NCBI RefSeq assembly: GCF_019029495.1 | Contig: NZ_JAERQM010000001.1 | Location: forward strand, 124,001-188,000 | DNA length: 64,000 nucleotides | Direction: 5' to 3' | DNA from: Falsiroseomonas oleicola | Lineage (GTDB): Bacteria > Pseudomonadota > Alphaproteobacteria > Acetobacterales > Acetobacteraceae | Part shown: positions 6,977-60,080 of the stretch, one piece after another | Position numbering within the stretch: position 1 is the stretch's first letter | Layout: every line of letters begins with the position of its first letter | The notes under the pieces: model-generated | Database searches by the model: none | The model's input: only the letters and a program-made list of their open reading frames with translations | Told to the model about the DNA's origin: nothing | Made by a program: the position numbers and the translations under genes

Positions 6977-8448
6977 TCGACCTCGCCACGCTGCGCGCCG
7001 TGATGGACGGCGCGCGCTTCAACCTGCCCGAGGGCTGGCGCGAGGCCACCGAACAGGGCGCCGCGGTGCTCGCCGCGCGACTGGCCGAGGATGGCCCGAT
7101 CTACGGTGTGAACACGGGTTTCGGCAAACTGGCCTCAACGCGCATCGCGCCGGCGAAGCTGGCGCAGCTTCAGCTAAACCTGCTGCGCAGCCATGCCGCG
7201 GGCACGGGGGCGCCCCTGCCCTCGCAGGTGGTGCGGCTGGTGCTGGCGCTGAAGGCGCTGTCCCTGTCGCGCGGTGCCTCCGGCGTGCGGGTCGAGGTGG
7301 TGGAGGCGCTGCTGAACTTGCTCGCCACCGATGCGCTGCCGGTGATCCCCGCGAAAGGCTCGGTCGGCGCTTCCGGCGACCTGGCGCCGCTGGCGCATCT
7401 CTCGCTCGTGCTGGTCGGCGAGGGCGAGGTTTTTGTGAATGGCCTCCGCCGGCCGGGTGCCGAGGCGGGCATTGCGCCCCTCACCCTCGGGCCGAAGGAA
7501 GGGCTCGCGCTGCTGAACGGCACGCAGGTTTCCACGGCCATCGCGCTTGCAAACCTTTTCGCCGCCCAAAGCCTGCTGCACACATCGCTGGTGGCGGGCG
7601 CGCTCAGCGTCGATGCGGCACGCGGCTCCGACACACCCTTCGATGCGCGCATCCACGCGCTGCGCGGCCAGCCGGGCCAGATCCGCTGCGCCGCGGCGCT
7701 GCGCGGATTGATGGCCGGCAGCGAAATCCGCGACAGTCACCGGGAGGGTGATACCCGCGTGCAGGACCCCTATTCGCTGCGCTGCCAGCCCCAGGTCGCC
7801 GGCGCCTGCCTCGACCTGCTGGATCACGCGGCGGCGGTGCTCGCGCGGGAGGCCAATGCCGTCACCGACAATCCGCTGGTCATGGCCGATGGCGACATCC
7901 TGTCGGGCGGCAATTTCCATGCGGAGCCGGTGGCCTTCGCCGCCGATAGCATCGCGCTGGCCCTGGCCGAACTCGGCGCCATCAGTGAGCGCCGCATCGC
8001 CCTTCTCGTGGACCCGGTGCTGTCGGGCCTGCCGGCCTTCCTGGTGTCCGAAGGCGGTCTGCATTCCGGCTTCATGATCGCCCAGGTCACCGCCGCCGCG
8101 CTGGTCGCGGAGAACCGCGCGCTCGCCACGCCCCGCAGCGTCGACAGCCTGCCCACCAGCGCGAACCAGGAGGATCATGTCAGCATGGCCACCGGCGCGG
8201 CGCTGCGGCTCGGAGAGATGGCGGAGAACCTGTCCTCCATCCTCTCCATCGAACTGCTGTGTGCCGCGCAGGGGCTGGAGTTCCATCGGCCACTCACGAC
8301 CTCCGCGCCGCTCGCCGCCGCACAAGCCCTGGTGCGCGGCGTCGCGGCGCCCTGGGATGCCGATCGTTTCATGGCCCCCGACATGGAAGCGGTGCGGCTG
8401 CTGGTCCAAAGTGGCGCCTTCGCCAGGCTGGTGGAGTTGCCCGCATGA
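6973..8448 (+). CDS. hutH: Histidine ammonia-lyase
   Basis: 491 residues. It deaminates L-histidine to urocanate, the first step of the pathway. The MIO cofactor triad Ala133-Ser134-Gly135 lies in [12 protein letters not shown]. Other active-site elements are IYGVNTGFG (43-51), [11 protein letters not shown] and NAVTDNPLV. Translationally coupled on both sides: ATGA overlap with hutU and ATGA overlap with hutI. Confidence 0.96.
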
Positions 8449-9650
8449 TCTTCGACCGCGTCTGGCTCGACGCCCATCTCTGCACCATGGTTTCCCGGGA
8501 AGGCGACCCGCTCGGGGTGATCGAGGATGGTGCGATCGCCGCCAAGGATGGGCGCATCGCCTGGGTTGGTCCTCGCGCCGACCTCCCCGGCGGCGCGGAG
8601 ATCACGACACGTTGCGACGGCGCCTGGATCCTGCCCGGGCTGATCGATTGCCACACCCACCTCATCTTCGCTGGCGACCGCGCCCGCGAATTCGAGATGC
8701 GGCTGGAGGGCGCGAGCTACGAAGCCATCGCCAAGGCCGGCGGCGGAATCCTCTCCACGGTCCGCGCCACGCGCGACGCGACCGAGGATGCGCTGGTGCA
8801 GGCCGCCCTGCCCCGCCTCGACCAGTTGCTGGCCGAAGGCGTCACCACGATCGAGGTCAAATCGGGCTATGGCCTCGACCTGCCGACCGAGGCGCGGATG
8901 CTGCGCGCCGCGCGGCGCCTGCCGGGGCTGCGCCAACTCTCCCTGCAGACCAGCCTGCTCGCCGCCCATGCGACGCCGCCGGAATTTGCGGGTCGCACCG
9001 CCGAATTCGCGCGCCATGTGGCGGAGGACATCTTGCCGGCCATCGCAGCCGAGGGCTTGGCCGATGCGGTGGACGCTTTTACGGACAGTGCCATCGGTTT
9101 CACGGCCGAGCAGACGGCATGGGTGTTCGATGCCGCACAACGCGCCGGGCTGCCGGTAAAACTGCATGCGGATCAGCTCCGCGATGATGGCGGCTGCGCG
9201 CTGGCGGCGGGCTACGGCGCGCTGTCCGCCGATCACATCGAATATGCCAGCCCAGATGGCATCGCGGCCATGGCGCAGGCGGGGACCGTCGGCGTGCTGC
9301 TGCCGGGCGCCTTCTACTTCATCCGCGAAACCCACTTCCCCGACATCGCCACGATGCGCGCCGCCGGACTGCGCATTGCCTTGGCGACGGACCTCAACCC
9401 CGGCTCCTGCCCCGCACCGTCCCTGCTGCTGATGCTGAACATGGGCTGCACCCTGTTCCGGCTGACGGTGGCCGAAGCCCTGGCCGGCGTCACGCGGAAC
9501 GCCGCGGCCGCCCTTGGCCTCGCCGATCGCGGCACGTTGACGCCGGGGCTGCGCTGCGATCTGGCGCTGTATGGCATCTCCCGCCCCGCGGAGCTCTGCT
9601 ACTGGATCGGCCGCAACCCCTGCCTCGGCCGCGTGGTGGGCGGGGCATGA
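8445..9650 (+). CDS. hutI: Imidazolonepropionase
   Basis: 401 residues of the amidohydrolase fold. It opens imidazolone propionate to formimidoylglutamate, the HutF substrate. Metal-site motifs are H70-T-H72 in [14 protein letters not shown], the VKSGYGLD loop, [14 protein letters not shown] and [11 protein letters not shown]. The start overlaps the hutH stop and the stop overlaps the next ATG, each by 4 bp, so hutU-hutH-hutI-thioesterase form one coupled run. Confidence 0.95.
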
Positions 9651-50036: not shown

Positions 50037-50077
50037 CTTCCTACCTTCTCACTTAATTTGCTGGCACCCTAGAATGC

Positions 50078-50656
50078 TTAAAGAAGCTGGAGACTGCTAG
50101 CAGACAAAGTTCGGAACTCATGAACATACGCTTCAAGCGAAATAGAAATACCGCGGTCAATAAAGGCGACCTCGTTGCGCCATCCCTTGTCCTGAGATTT
50201 AATCAGCGGCGGAACATAATCCGCATCGCCCGCAACCAGGACAATTGTTGACGGCCCCTGCTGCGTATAGATTGTTTCCATAATCTCCACAATAAGATAC
50301 GCATCATCCTGCTTGGATCTGTTACCCGTGCCAAGATACCCGCGCCTAACGACAAAACCCTTGCTCTCAGCAGCCTTCCAGAAACTATCATCGTCGGGGA
50401 TTACGCCCGCAATGTAAGCACTACCAACAGCGCGAGTGTTCCCATTCGAGTCCTTTGCGACTTCCATCAACAGTCGACCAAAATCTATTCTATAGGAACG
50501 CCCGCCCTCATTATTCCGTATCCCGTAAAATAAATTTTGGTCGTCTACAAAAACATGGACCACACCATTTGCGAGATCTTGGTGCTGAGCAGCCCGCCCA
50601 ACTCTTTTGGTAGCTTGGCCAGATGATTTCTTAATTTTCTTCGCTTTGCCGGCCAT
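50078..50656 (-). CDS. NYN-domain (LabA/DUF88-type) protein inserted between cobS and cobT
   Basis: 192 residues. A basic Lys-rich N-terminus precedes a PIN-like NYN fold: GVVHVFVDDQNLFYGIRN (first acidic motif DDQN), IPDDDSFWKAAESKGFVVRRGYLGTGNRSKQDDAYLIVEIMETIY (second, QDDAYLIV) and STIVLVAGDADYVPPLIKSQDKGW (third, GDADY). NYN proteins are putative RNases. The DNA is far richer in A+T than its neighbours, with rare codons such as ATA and AGA. GGGGGAG lies 7 nt before the ATG. It splits cobST, indicating recent acquisition. Confidence 0.85.
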   Translation of the reverse strand: MAGKAKKIKKSSGQATKRVGRAAQHQDLANGVVHVFVDDQNLFYGIRNNEGGRSYRIDFGRLLMEVAKDSNGNTRAVGSAYIAGVIPDDDSFWKAAESKGFVVRRGYLGTGNRSKQDDAYLIVEIMETIYTQQGPSTIVLVAGDADYVPPLIKSQDKGWRNEVAFIDRGISISLEAYVHEFRTLSASSLQLL

Positions 50657-50691
50657 AGCTGCACTCCCCCAAGATCAAGCTAGTGGATAAC

Positions 50692-55447: not shown

Positions 55448-56350
55448 ATGGATCGGCACGCGGAGGCCTTTCTCGAAATGCTGGCGGCCGAGCGTGGCGC
55501 GGCCCGCAACACCCTGGCCGCCTATGCTGCCGACCTGGCCGATTTCAGCGACCATTGCGCGCCGCGCGGCATCACCCCGCTGACCGCCGATGCCGGCACC
55601 ATCCAATCCTATCTGCGCGCCCTGACCGATGCCGGCTTCGCCGCCCGCACCGCCGCCCGCCGCCTTTCCGCGCTGCGCCAGTTCTTCCGCTTCCTGGTGC
55701 AGGAAGGGCTGCGGGAGGATGATCCGACAGCGCTCGAGGAAGGCCCCCGCCTGCCCGCCAGCCTGCCCAAGCCGCTGGCGGAGGCGGAGATGGAGGCGCT
55801 GCTGGAAGGCGCCGCCCGGCTGCCCGGCAACCGTGGCCCCTTCGCCGTCGCGCTGATCGAACTGCTCTACAGCAGCGGCCTGCGCGTGAGCGAATTGGCC
55901 GCCCTGCCCGCCAGCGCGCTGCGGCCGGGCCAGCCGCTGGTCACCGTGCGCGGCAAGGGCAACAAGGACCGCCTGGTGCCGATCTCCACCCGGGCGCGCG
56001 CCGCCGTCCAGGCAGCGCTGGAGGCGCGGCCCAACCCGGAAAAACCTTCCCGCTGGCTGTTTCCCTCCCGCGCGGCGGAAGGGCATGTGACGCGCCAGAC
56101 GATCGGGCTGATCCTGAAGGATGCGGCGCTGAACGCCGGGCTGGACCCGGCCAGGGTCAGCCCGCATGTGCTGCGGCATTCCTTCGCCTCCCACCTCCTG
56201 GCCCGCGGCGCCGATCTGCGCAGCCTGCAGGTGCTGCTGGGCCATGCGGATATCGCCACCACGCAGATCTACACCAAGGTGCTGGAGGAGAAGCTCCAGC
56301 GTCTGGTCCAGGACCATCACCCACTCGCTGTGCAGGAAACCGCGCCATGA
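55448..56350 (+). CDS. xerD: Tyrosine recombinase XerD
   Basis: 300 residues. The SAM-like core-binding domain is followed by a complete catalytic set: Arg146 (SSGLRVSEL), Lys170 (VRGKGNKDR), His240 and Arg243 (SPHVLRHSFASH), His266 (LLGHADIATTQIYT) and nucleophile Tyr275. With XerC it resolves chromosome dimers at dif. No dif site was seen here. Coupled to the next gene by ATGA. Confidence 0.94.
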   Translation: MDRHAEAFLEMLAAERGAARNTLAAYAADLADFSDHCAPRGITPLTADAGTIQSYLRALTDAGFAARTAARRLSALRQFFRFLVQEGLREDDPTALEEGPRLPASLPKPLAEAEMEALLEGAARLPGNRGPFAVALIELLYSSGLRVSELAALPASALRPGQPLVTVRGKGNKDRLVPISTRARAAVQAALEARPNPEKPSRWLFPSRAAEGHVTRQTIGLILKDAALNAGLDPARVSPHVLRHSFASHLLARGADLRSLQVLLGHADIATTQIYTKVLEEKLQRLVQDHHPLAVQETAP

Positions 56351-57280: not shown

Positions 57281-58297
57281 ATGGTGCCCGCCGCCGACCG
57301 CCTCTGCCGCCTGATGGGCGGCGCCATCACCGATGTCGCCGGCGTGAAGGTCGGCCATTTCACCGAGACCCGCCGCCCCACGGGCTGCACCGTGATCCTG
57401 ACGGAGGAAGGTGCCGTGGCCGGCGTCGATGTGCGCGGTGCCGCGCCGGGGACGCGGGAGACGGAGTTGCTCGATCCCTCCAACCTGGTGGAGCAGGTGC
57501 ATGCCGTGCTGCTCTCCGGCGGCAGCGTCTTCGGGCTGGAGGCGGCGACCGGCGTGGTGCGGTGGCTGGAGGAGAAGGGCATCGGCTTTCCCGCCGGCCC
57601 GGCCACCGTGCCGATCGTGCCCGCCGCCATCCTGTTCGACCTCGACCACGGCGACCACCACATCCGGCCCGATGCCGCCGCCGGCCATGCCGCCTGCGCG
57701 GCCGCGACCAGCCTGCCGCCGGCGGAAGGGTCGGTGGGGGCGGGCACCGGGGCGACGGTGGGCAAGCTGTTCGGCGCGGCCCGCGCCATGAAGGGCGGTA
57801 TCGGCACCGCCTCGGTGAAGCTTGGCCAGATCACGGTGGGCGCCATCGTCGCGGTGAATGCGGTGGGCGATGTGGTGGACCCCGCCAGCGGCCGCGTTCT
57901 GGCCGGCGCGCGCGACACGGCCGAGGGACGTGAGCGCATCGGCACCGTCGACAGCATCCTGCGCGGCGACCTGCCCGCCATCCTTCAGGCGGGCATGGCG
58001 ACCACCATCGGGGTCGTCGCCACCGATGCGACCCTGACCAAGGCGCAGGCCCGGCGCTTGGCCCAGGTGGCGCATGACGGCCTGGCCCGCACCATCAACC
58101 CGGTTCACACGATGTGGGACGGCGATACGATCTTCGCGCTGGCGACCGGCAAATCCGGCCAGGCGGGGAACATGACCGTTCTGTCCGTGATGGCGGCGGA
58201 GGCGATGGCGGCGGCCGTGCTGCGGGCCGTGCTGCACGCCCAGGCCATCGCCGGCCCGGGCGTCCCGCAGCTACCGACCGCGTCGGATTTCGACTGA
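57281..58297 (+). CDS. P1-family aminopeptidase/esterase (DmpA-like)
   Basis: 338 residues. ITDVAGVKVGHFTETRRPTGCTVILTEEGAVAGVDVRGAAPGTRETELLDP is the P1 start; SVGAGTGATVGKL, KGGIGTASVKLGQITVGAIVAVNAVGDVVDP and ATTIGVVATDATLTKAQARRLAQVAHDGLARTINPVHTMWDGDTIFALATG complete it. P1 enzymes self-cleave to expose a Ser or Thr nucleophile; the Thr in TTIGVVATD is the candidate. It starts 4 bp after the lyase stop. Confidence 0.9.
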   Translation: MVPAADRLCRLMGGAITDVAGVKVGHFTETRRPTGCTVILTEEGAVAGVDVRGAAPGTRETELLDPSNLVEQVHAVLLSGGSVFGLEAATGVVRWLEEKGIGFPAGPATVPIVPAAILFDLDHGDHHIRPDAAAGHAACAAATSLPPAEGSVGAGTGATVGKLFGAARAMKGGIGTASVKLGQITVGAIVAVNAVGDVVDPASGRVLAGARDTAEGRERIGTVDSILRGDLPAILQAGMATTIGVVATDATLTKAQARRLAQVAHDGLARTINPVHTMWDGDTIFALATGKSGQAGNMTVLSVMAAEAMAAAVLRAVLHAQAIAGPGVPQLPTASDFD

Positions 58298-58306
58298 CAT
58301 CAGCCT

Positions 58307-58452
58307 TTGTGCACGCGCAGCGGCCCGAAGCTCTGGCTCACGGGCATGACCTGCAAGGTGTTCACATTCACCCGCGCCGGCCGCGTCGCCACCCAATGCA
58401 CGGCATCGGCGATATCCTCCGGTAGCAGCGGGTCTGCGCCGGCAAAGGGCGC
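58307..58452 (-). pseudogene. Orphaned duplicate of the 3' end of the SDR gene
   Basis: 146 bp that match the functional SDR 3' end at 59329-59474 with 7 mismatches by eye. On the minus strand it encodes the SDR ending LRVHK followed by Gly and a stop, whereas the functional gene ends LRVHKIDLK. E. coli YdfG ends at about the same place as this copy, so the fragment looks like the original gene end, displaced by the insertion 58453-59328. No start and no promoter. Confidence 0.85.
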
Positions 58453-58483
58453 AAATGCATTCTTTAGTCAGATATTTTTCAGC

Positions 58484-59218
58484 CTAATGCAATCCTCGAC
58501 GTGGCGCGGCTCGAATCACAGAATTTAGCGCCTGCCACACCGAGCGAGCGACATGTCTAATTGCTCCCTGCTTCATACGCGCATATACGACAGTTCCAAT
58601 CGCATCCAAATCACTCTCACCCCTATAATGTCGAGCAATCGGACGAAGATTGCGTATTATGGCCAGCATATCCTCCAACGAAATAGAAGCACTTTCGCCC
58701 AACCCATATAGTTGAACGCTTTTATTTATGCGATGAGCAATCAAAAAATAATCCTGCTGCGGCTTGAGACTGAAGACCTGCTGGAAGAACGGAATTGCGC
58801 GGCCATTTGAAGCAGCCACCTCCCGCGCCACCTTTTGAAAGATACTTCCACCCGGTCGCTCAGACCGAAATCTGTCTCTGCCAATCTCGAAGAGTGCCGA
58901 AGGGACAGGATATGCCGCACCCATTCCAGCAAAAAGAAAATTCGCAGATTGACCGCGCTCAAAGCTCTCCCTCATTTCGACACCACCCTCACTCATTGCC
59001 CGGGCAGATAAATCCGGATCGAAAAATAGAAGCATGATTTCGGGCCCGAGCGCATCATCAAACTGATTTTTATTTTCGAGGCAAGATTGAATCAGCATTT
59101 CCATAGCCGAACTGCTGCCGTGCAACATGATTAATATATTTGCTGGATTAGCGGCGCCTTGATCTGTATCGAAAAACCAGTGAAATATTGCTCCAGGATG
59201 CCCTTCCTTGACGTCCAT
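58484..59218 (-). CDS. Unrecognised protein carried on the insertion
   Basis: About 244 residues with no family I can name. Near the N-terminus ANILIMLHGSSSAMEMLIQS is a hydrophobic strand then a HGSSS turn, weakly recalling hydrolase or P-loop-like folds; EIMLLFFDPDLS follows. The C-terminus is mixed basic (RMKQGAIRHVARSVWQALNSVIRAAPRRGLH). No signal or membrane segment. Codon use and A+T content differ sharply from the chromosome. I chose the ATG at 59218 with GGGAGGAG just upstream; ATG at 59230 is an alternative. Confidence 0.7.
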   Translation of the reverse strand: MDVKEGHPGAIFHWFFDTDQGAANPANILIMLHGSSSAMEMLIQSCLENKNQFDDALGPEIMLLFFDPDLSARAMSEGGVEMRESFERGQSANFLFAGMGAAYPVPSALFEIGRDRFRSERPGGSIFQKVAREVAASNGRAIPFFQQVFSLKPQQDYFLIAHRINKSVQLYGLGESASISLEDMLAIIRNLRPIARHYRGESDLDAIGTVVYARMKQGAIRHVARSVWQALNSVIRAAPRRGLH

Positions 59219-59312
59219 ATCTCCTCCCATCTTCAAAATCGGTATTTGTTTTTATTAACGAAGGTTTGCGTAATCATAATAGAAAGTAATTCTGCGACCG
59301 TCAATAATGTTG

Positions 59313-60080
59313 TTATTTCAAATCAATCTTGTGCACGCGCAGCGGCCCGAAGCTCTGGCTCACCGGCATCACCTGCAAGGTGTTCACATTCACCCGCGCC
59401 GGCCGCGTCGCCACCCAATGCACGGCATCGGCGATATCCTCCGGCAGCAGCGGATCGGTGCCGGCATAGGGCGCCGCGGCCTTTTCCGCATCGCCCTTGA
59501 AACGCACCGCGCTGAATTCCGTACCGCCGACCAGGCCGGGTTCGATATCGGTCACTCGCACCGCCGTGCCATACAGGTCGGCGCGCAGATTCAGGCTGAA
59601 ATGCCGGACGAAGGCCTTGGTGGCACCGTAGACATTGCCACCCGGATAGGGCCACTCACCGGCCGTCGAGCCGATATTCACCACATGCCCGCGATTGCGC
59701 GCCACCATCCCCGGCAGCACGGCGCGCGTCACATACATCAGCCCCTTGCAGTTGGTATCGACCATCGCCTCCCAGTCATCGAGGTCGGCGCCTTGGGCGG
59801 GGTTCAGGCCGAGCGCCAGCCCTGCATTGTTCACCAGCAGGTCGATGTCCATGAAGCCGGCCGGCAGCTCGGCCACCGCCTGCGCCACCGCGGTGCGGTC
59901 GCGCACATCCAGCGTCACCGCATGGCAGCGCTCCGCGCCGAGTTCCGCCACCAGCCCCTCCAGCCGATCCTGTCGGCGGCCGGCCGCGACGATGTGCCAG
60001 CCATCGGCGGCGAAGCGCCGTGCGATGGCCAGGCCGAAGCCGGCGGTGGCGCCGGTGATGAGGGCGATGGGTGCGGTCAT
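59313..60080 (-). CDS. ydfG: YdfG-like NADP-dependent SDR with an insertion-derived C-terminus
   Basis: 255 residues. ITGATAGFGLAIARRFA binds NADP, LVNNAGLALG, NIGSTAGEWPYPGGNVYGATKAFVRHFS holds the Ser-Tyr-Lys triad, and VRVTDIEPGLVGGTEFSAVRFKGD with VNVNTLQVMPVSQSFGPLRVHK match YdfG, which reduces 3-hydroxy acids and malonic semialdehyde. The last four residues, IDLK, come from the adjoining insertion. The ATG at 60080 has AGGAGAG 7 nt upstream. Confidence 0.9.
   Translation of the reverse strand: MTAPIALITGATAGFGLAIARRFAADGWHIVAAGRRQDRLEGLVAELGAERCHAVTLDVRDRTAVAQAVAELPAGFMDIDLLVNNAGLALGLNPAQGADLDDWEAMVDTNCKGLMYVTRAVLPGMVARNRGHVVNIGSTAGEWPYPGGNVYGATKAFVRHFSLNLRADLYGTAVRVTDIEPGLVGGTEFSAVRFKGDAEKAAAPYAGTDPLLPEDIADAVHWVATRPARVNVNTLQVMPVSQSFGPLRVHKIDLK

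Follow-up and report, generated by a model that had tools for sequence, protein, structure and literature searches.

The 3′ end of an SDR gene of Falsiroseomonas oleicola is present twice in direct orientation, once as the end of the intact, restored gene and once as a remnant with an ancestral-type ending on the far side of an A+T-rich segment that holds a single ORF. Relatives lack the insert, and a second insertion with the same footprint lies behind an aldolase-like gene of the same genome. In our view these observations are best accounted for by the insertion of about 1.0 kb of DNA through a single crossover in the gene tail, probably by host recombination, a reading that we advance tentatively and with a little less than even confidence.

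The duplicated SDR gene end and its insert

The window analysed here is the whole stretch of 64,000 nt from positions 124,001 to 188,000 of contig NZ_JAERQM010000001.1, and its relevant features are collected in Table 1. The initial annotation had described a 146-bp copy of the SDR 3′ end with seven mismatches beyond an A+T-rich segment, and both the repeat comparison and self-BLAST agree with this description. The two copies, which start 1022 nt apart, are identical at 139 of 146 positions (95.2%), and the self-BLAST E value of 2.8e-58 indicates that the repeat did not arise by chance. Numbered in the orientation of the gene, the mismatches fall at positions 8, 16, 18, 21, 30, 105 and 111, and the 74 nt between positions 30 and 105 are the same in both copies. 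The working gene encodes the C-terminus RVHKIDLK, while the left copy, which lacks the remainder of the SDR gene, encodes RVHKG. This layout is read from the assembly alone, in a contig of 1.44 Mb and with seven differences between the two tail copies. Among NCBIfam models the SDR gene scores best with YdfG, at 401 bits, below the cut-off of 411. The names of the peptidase-, CitE-, aldolase- and SMP-30-like genes, argG, cobS/cobT and the methyltransferase were read from sequence.

Table 1. Features of the SDR locus and of the other insertions discussed in the text. Positions are those of the window unless a contig is given; strand is + or -.
Feature	Position	Strand	Evidence or remark
SDR gene (YdfG-like), complete, new last codons IDLK	59313..60080	-	Pfam adh_short E 2.8e-53; NCBIfam YdfG
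Working copy of the 146-nt tail repeat	59329..59474	-	
Remnant copy of the SDR tail, then Gly-stop	58307..58452	-	stop 58300-58302
74-nt identical stretch, working side	59371..59444	-	counterpart 58349-58422; putative place of the crossover
A+T-rich insert between the tail copies	58453..59328	.	876 nt, 46% G+C
Cargo ORF, 244 aa (250 aa from upstream TTG at 59236)	58484..59218	-	no recognised family
Sigma-70-like promoter TTGACG-17-TATTAT, candidate for the cargo	59276..59304	-	between SDR stop and cargo ORF
Peptidase-like gene, convergent neighbour	57281..58297	+	name read from sequence; stop 2 nt from remnant stop
NYN-domain ORF between cobS and cobT	50078-50656	-	Pfam E 1.2e-13
Second insertion, aldolase-like tail copy	G000:C1:783213-784501 = L114:15213-16501	.	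repeat scan

The insert has a G+C content of 46%, compared with a contig mean of about 70%, and the cargo ORF is the only ORF of at least 100 aa wholly inside it, on the same strand as the SDR gene. Its ATG at 59218 is closely preceded by GGAGG, which resembles a ribosome-binding site, and its GC3 of 0.45 is to be compared with 0.83 for the SDR gene and 0.91 for the neighbouring peptidase-like gene. The promoter scan returned two sites in the region against a shuffle mean of 1.1 (s.d. 1.2) and is not significant by itself.

The cargo had been called unrecognised, and no database searched yielded a convincing relative. The ORF has no match in Pfam at E ≤ 1, in NCBIfam or PADLOC at E ≤ 5, among PDB sequences at E ≤ 10, in plasmids and phages at E ≤ 0.01, or in the genome_contigs and viral_contigs collections. 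As Pfam, NCBIfam and PADLOC are all without a match, the cargo contains no recognisable recombinase, in agreement with the earlier account of an element of about 1 kb that carries none. Two PHROGs matches (E 0.33 and 0.48) are at the level of chance. Short C-terminal matches in four other genomes of the 397 family genomes (E 4.6e-5 to 6.5e-4) are probably due to chance as well; those in L032 and L033, the two inspected, lie inside ORFs that read as tRNA nucleotidyltransferases. The structure predicted for the cargo alone has a mean pLDDT of 39.9 and was set aside. An accessory, perhaps defence, role for the cargo is a guess.

The SDR locus in relatives and the search for a mobile source

The initial annotation had called for an empty site in relatives, and this was found: close relatives carry the SDR gene without the insert, ending in HK followed by Gly, Ala, Ser or Pro and then a stop, in agreement with IDLK of the working gene having taken the place of an ending of the Gly-stop type. 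The SDRs of five genomes of the same genus, Falsiroseomonas, have S, P, G, A and A, respectively, after HK. Among 80 SDR loci of named genomes, one of which (L319) cannot be recognised at its end, HKIDLK does not occur as an ending, and the cargo is absent from all 80. When these loci were searched for tail copies over 3.5 kb downstream, or as far as the contig end, a clear copy was seen at one only, that of G001 (L255; also L003), as a 30-bp tandem of 96.7% identity with no cargo. Weaker or shorter matches of 14–47 nt occur at five other loci; the longest of them (47 nt, in L295) probably reflects coding DNA with no relation to the tail.

A match to the SDR tail at E ≤ 1e-6 is found in 99 of 397 family genomes, that of the window among them, and in the genome of the window alone do two tails share a contig, in a search that scored two candidates per genome and that short second copies could escape. 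In G025 the two matches are on separate contigs, one of them in an SDR paralogue of 34% identity. The suggestion that the SDR end might be a hot spot with other cargo behind a duplicated tail was not borne out among the other 98 matching genomes (two candidates per genome), and no larger version of an island is present at the SDR end in them.

In G001 and G007 the SDR gene is convergent with a CitE-like gene, and neither the peptidase-like gene nor the cargo lies between the two. The gap between the CitE-like and SDR genes has gained two things in the window, because the peptidase-like gene is also missing from this place in relatives; its relatives of 79% identity are located elsewhere in G009 and G010. 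For the same reason, synteny with the adjoining peptidase-like gene is no proof that the remnant side is the native one.

As to which of the tail copies is old, the left copy carries the ancestral type of ending, and the new codons belong to the working copy, which lies next to the cargo. A single crossover within the tail would predict just this, with the old ending on the left copy and the new codons on the copy that adjoins the cargo. At positions 8, 16 and 30 the working copy agrees with 14, 13 and 13, respectively, of the 14 relatives compared, and the remnant departs from this state, as expected for an arm freed from coding constraint; the state at positions 18, 21, 105 and 111 is variable among the 14. 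Statistical support for an asymmetry of the mismatches is modest: Fisher's test gives 0.004 for the SDR repeat with a boundary chosen afterwards and the longest gap gives 0.048, while for the SDR and aldolase repeats pooled the KS value is 0.08 and 10 of 15 mismatches fall in the first half (p = 0.15).

A tyrosine recombinase gene lies 2 kb from the insert (55448-56350, + strand). It is Xer-like, and G001 and G007, both without the insert, have kept it next to the CitE-like gene. The genome as a whole has 12 integrase-family matches, 11 of them over the cut-off, and no recombinase is recognisable in either the SDR or the aldolase insert. No SDR tail resembling an attP was found in plasmids, phages or viral contigs. 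In mobile DNA, matches to the SDR tail at 69–76% identity occur in five plasmids and in one Klebsiella phage. Of the plasmid places, two are annotated as SDR, one as ydfG and two are unannotated; the match in the phage record belongs to a complete dehydrogenase gene on the far side of integrase and dcp and was read as host DNA. None of 45 viral stretches that match a pattern encodes an SDR tail.

A second insertion and other repeats of the genome

Close direct repeats were scanned in 2.44 of the 5.62 Mb of the genome (43%: C1 whole, C23 1-600,000 and C25 1-400,000). Three non-tandem repeats of at least 100 nt and at least 90% identity were found in the 2.44 Mb, namely those at the SDR and aldolase-like genes and one 1062-nt pair. 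The last 114 nt of the aldolase-like gene (784388-785143, - strand) are copied with 93.0% identity and one single-base deletion, and the copies flank a segment of 50% G+C with a single 219-aa ORF on the strand of the aldolase-like gene, in the same polarity as at the SDR gene. This ORF has no match in Pfam at E ≤ 1 and none in NCBIfam or PADLOC at E ≤ 0.01; partial matches occur in five other genomes of the 397. The SDR and aldolase repeats have no common core: their longest shared stretch is 7 nt, which 89% of random pairs equal or better; the two copies of the SDR tail have 74 nt in a row without a difference. Among 13 A+T-rich segments of at least 900 nt in 2.05 Mb scanned, two have flanking tail repeats. 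A rough estimate puts at the order of 1e-4 the probability that two of the three close repeats would fall on A+T-rich one-gene segments by chance. This second case suggests that single genes can be inserted behind host genes without carrying a gene for a recombination enzyme.

In the relative G001 (L179 = G001:C119, about 8074-8870), the place between the two flanking genes is taken by a different single ORF, which is methyltransferase-like. Within it, 14 nt could be what is left of an aldolase tail, which is only suggestive (p = 0.0008 by mononucleotide shuffling and 0.01 by comparison with windows of the genome). The aldolase remnant departs from the common state at most of the differing sites; position 66, where the commoner state is that of the remnant and not of the working copy, counts against the single-crossover reading. 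For about 40 nt past the stop codon, the working aldolase-like gene and G001 have the same sequence in common. The incoming DNA would therefore have had to carry that stretch too, which tells against the simplest single-crossover model.

A possible third case was left uncounted. Behind argG (G000:C23:548023-551074 = L215:8023-11074), a 334-nt copy of the gene tail with 89% identity lies beyond a 725-aa ORF with leucine-rich-type repeats. In G003 argG is followed by the same gene (84% identity over argG and the gene), with no second argG tail in the 10 kb read. Along its length, the argG remnant is neither clearly donor-like nor clearly host-like in a mosaic test, and two argG-tail matches are found in 5 of 397 genomes. 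We regard this case as ambiguous. Five other close repeats are not, as far as could be judged, gene-tail copies around a foreign gene, and the remaining entries were judged on length, identity and spacing only.

Some further features of the genome were noted. Perfect direct repeats of 46 and 50 nt lie 16 and 14 kb apart at G000:C23:120662-136786 and G000:C25:248253-262077, respectively, each pair with an integrase-family match inside it near one end, and these segments look like ordinary integrative islands. At G000:C1:406046-422637 there is a 1189-nt direct repeat, 99.5% identical and 15.4 kb apart. Three A+T-rich one-gene segments (L124:3145-4350, L174:12902-14416 and L155:3057-3695) encode, respectively, a TIR domain, a protein of the OLD-like ATPase/TOPRIM type and a protein whose match to HEPN/AbiU2 is weak and does not reach the cut-off (E 0.003); single genes of these types are of kinds known from defence.

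Origin of the insertions

Under the reading that we prefer, the incoming DNA of about 1.0 kb would have consisted of one A+T-rich gene with its own promoter and a copy of the SDR 3′ end. A single crossover inside the homologous SDR tail would put this DNA, in its simplest form a circle, into the chromosome; it would join the host SDR gene to the incoming tail, so that the gene would stay whole but gain IDLK, and the host's own tail would be stranded on the far side as the remnant. Homology to the gene tail would act as the address of the insertion, and homologous recombination through 114–146 nt would need nothing encoded. We infer the crossover and, with it, the circle, passage from cell to cell and the role of RecA. 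In our opinion a dedicated recombinase is less likely than homologous recombination of the RecA type, since the second insertion lies at the tail of another gene and the two tails have no core in common. Against this reading, there are only two clear instances of such a tail-duplicating one-gene insertion, in 43% of one genome, and neither a circle nor an empty site within the species was seen.

A full gene, the insert and a truncated copy of the gene follow one another in direct orientation at the SDR locus, and again at the aldolase-like gene. According to the passages of PMC3240628 drawn on here, Campbell-type single-crossover insertion-duplication gives the same product, an intact gene, an insert and a truncated gene part. 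The same passages describe a conjugation test in Escherichia coli in which small non-replicating DNA with a gene end led mostly to partial gene duplications by single crossover, and these prevailed over the expected deletions among the clones analysed. The E. coli case is a laboratory plasmid, whereas here natural one-gene DNA is found at two genes of one genome.

The textbook case of an integrative element at the 3′ end of a protein gene is e14 at icd. Integron gene cassettes resemble the present inserts in being about 1 kb long, with one gene and no recombinase of their own, but they are joined at an attC site, whereas the repeat here is a coding gene tail. The SDR insertion works like gene-end integration, and the earlier proposal of gene-end integration that restores its target is still the best description of the anatomy of the locus: the duplicated and restored end fits it, and the repeat includes the end of the target gene, which stays whole, as in integrase elements at gene 3′ ends. 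This description does not extend to membership in an integrase-driven family; the insert, with a single ORF that has no match in Pfam, NCBIfam or PADLOC, does not include the integrase gene of a tyrosine-integrase element. In the portions of PMC5704250 used here, IMEs, ICEs and prophages at protein-gene 3′ ends likewise keep the target whole through an element-borne end and leave a truncated native end beyond the insert. The present inserts differ from them in being about 1 kb, with one gene and no recombinase, and in having repeats of 114–146 nt at two genes without a common core. A site-specific tyrosine recombinase acting in trans could nevertheless insert minimal cassettes at gene 3′ ends, with the repeat as attL and attR; such ends are usual targets at which one flanking repeat restores the gene (PMC5704250, same portions), and the genome has integrase-family genes that might serve. 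We consider this unlikely, given that the SDR and aldolase repeats share no core, that searches of the 98 other family genomes and of plasmids, phages and viral contigs gave no integrase-bearing element with the SDR tail, and that the tyrosine recombinase closest to the locus, an Xer-like one, is conserved where the insert is missing. The minimal cassette moved in trans, as initially proposed, is thus weakened by the second insertion, while its small size and lack of a recombinase hold.

The decay of a larger, integrase-bearing element at the SDR end to one gene between its ends is somewhat less probable still. CIMEs, as defined in the part of PMC5704250 cited, keep attL and attR without integration genes, and the SDR locus would be like them, if its flanking repeats were once the att sites of a larger element, in having both ends, and neither integration nor transfer genes beside its single ORF; the low G+C content also fits foreign DNA. 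The locus is unlike a CIME in that a larger progenitor has left no sign at the SDR site in the 98 other genomes with a match. The two inserts, each of about 1.0–1.2 kb with one intact ORF and both ends kept, also make a decayed island, the other origin initially offered, possible but less economical. The 30-bp tandem copy of the SDR end in G001, which has no cargo, would fit a different sequence of events, in which slippage first duplicated the tail in tandem and an A+T-rich gene afterwards came to lie between the copies for unrelated reasons. Two events would then be needed at each of two genes, and the possible 14-nt aldolase-tail relic in G001 is only suggestive (p about 0.01), so that we find this improbable. 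Even less credence is given to homology-facilitated illegitimate recombination, by which a linear fragment would use SDR-tail homology at one end and an illegitimate join at a short match at the other. In the passages of PMC3240628 concerned, this process, which has been described in three competent species and seldom occurs in E. coli, requires no encoded recombinase and usually yields a deletion, not a duplication; moreover, a wholly native remnant should decay evenly, whereas five of the seven changes lie in the first 30 nt.

Single genes are also gained at conserved places in another manner. In the window, an A+T-rich one-gene insertion at 50040-50690 separates cobS and cobT, with no tail copy at the site. 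The corresponding gap in 14 other genomes of the genus contains a GST-like gene in three, another ORF in one, a PIN-like ORF preceded by a small ORF in one (as their sequences read) and only 58–125 nt in nine. The gain of one gene between conserved genes is thus a recurrent event in the genus. As the gain between cobS and cobT came without a tail copy, gene exchange may need no more than homology of the neighbours, with a duplicated tail as just one possible result among several.

Beyond the SDR locus itself, these Acetobacteraceae might harbour a class of recombinase-free, homology-addressed one-gene cassettes, each a foreign gene joined to the 3′ end of a host gene as a portable address, with different tails for different cassettes, which host recombination would move in and out of the chromosome with no loss of function of the target gene. 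We offer this as speculation and hold it to be doubtful on present evidence. No account of recombinase-free one-gene insertions with duplicated gene tails was found among the top matches in open-access text. Bacterial chromosomes often contain single accessory genes that have no mobile element next to them. For the entry of such genes, two insertions with the same footprint in one genome, a host-gene tail that is duplicated and restored, point to a concrete and testable route that does without an encoded recombinase, and its signature, a gene tail, a foreign gene and the gene tail again, is simple and can be searched for in any collection of genomes.
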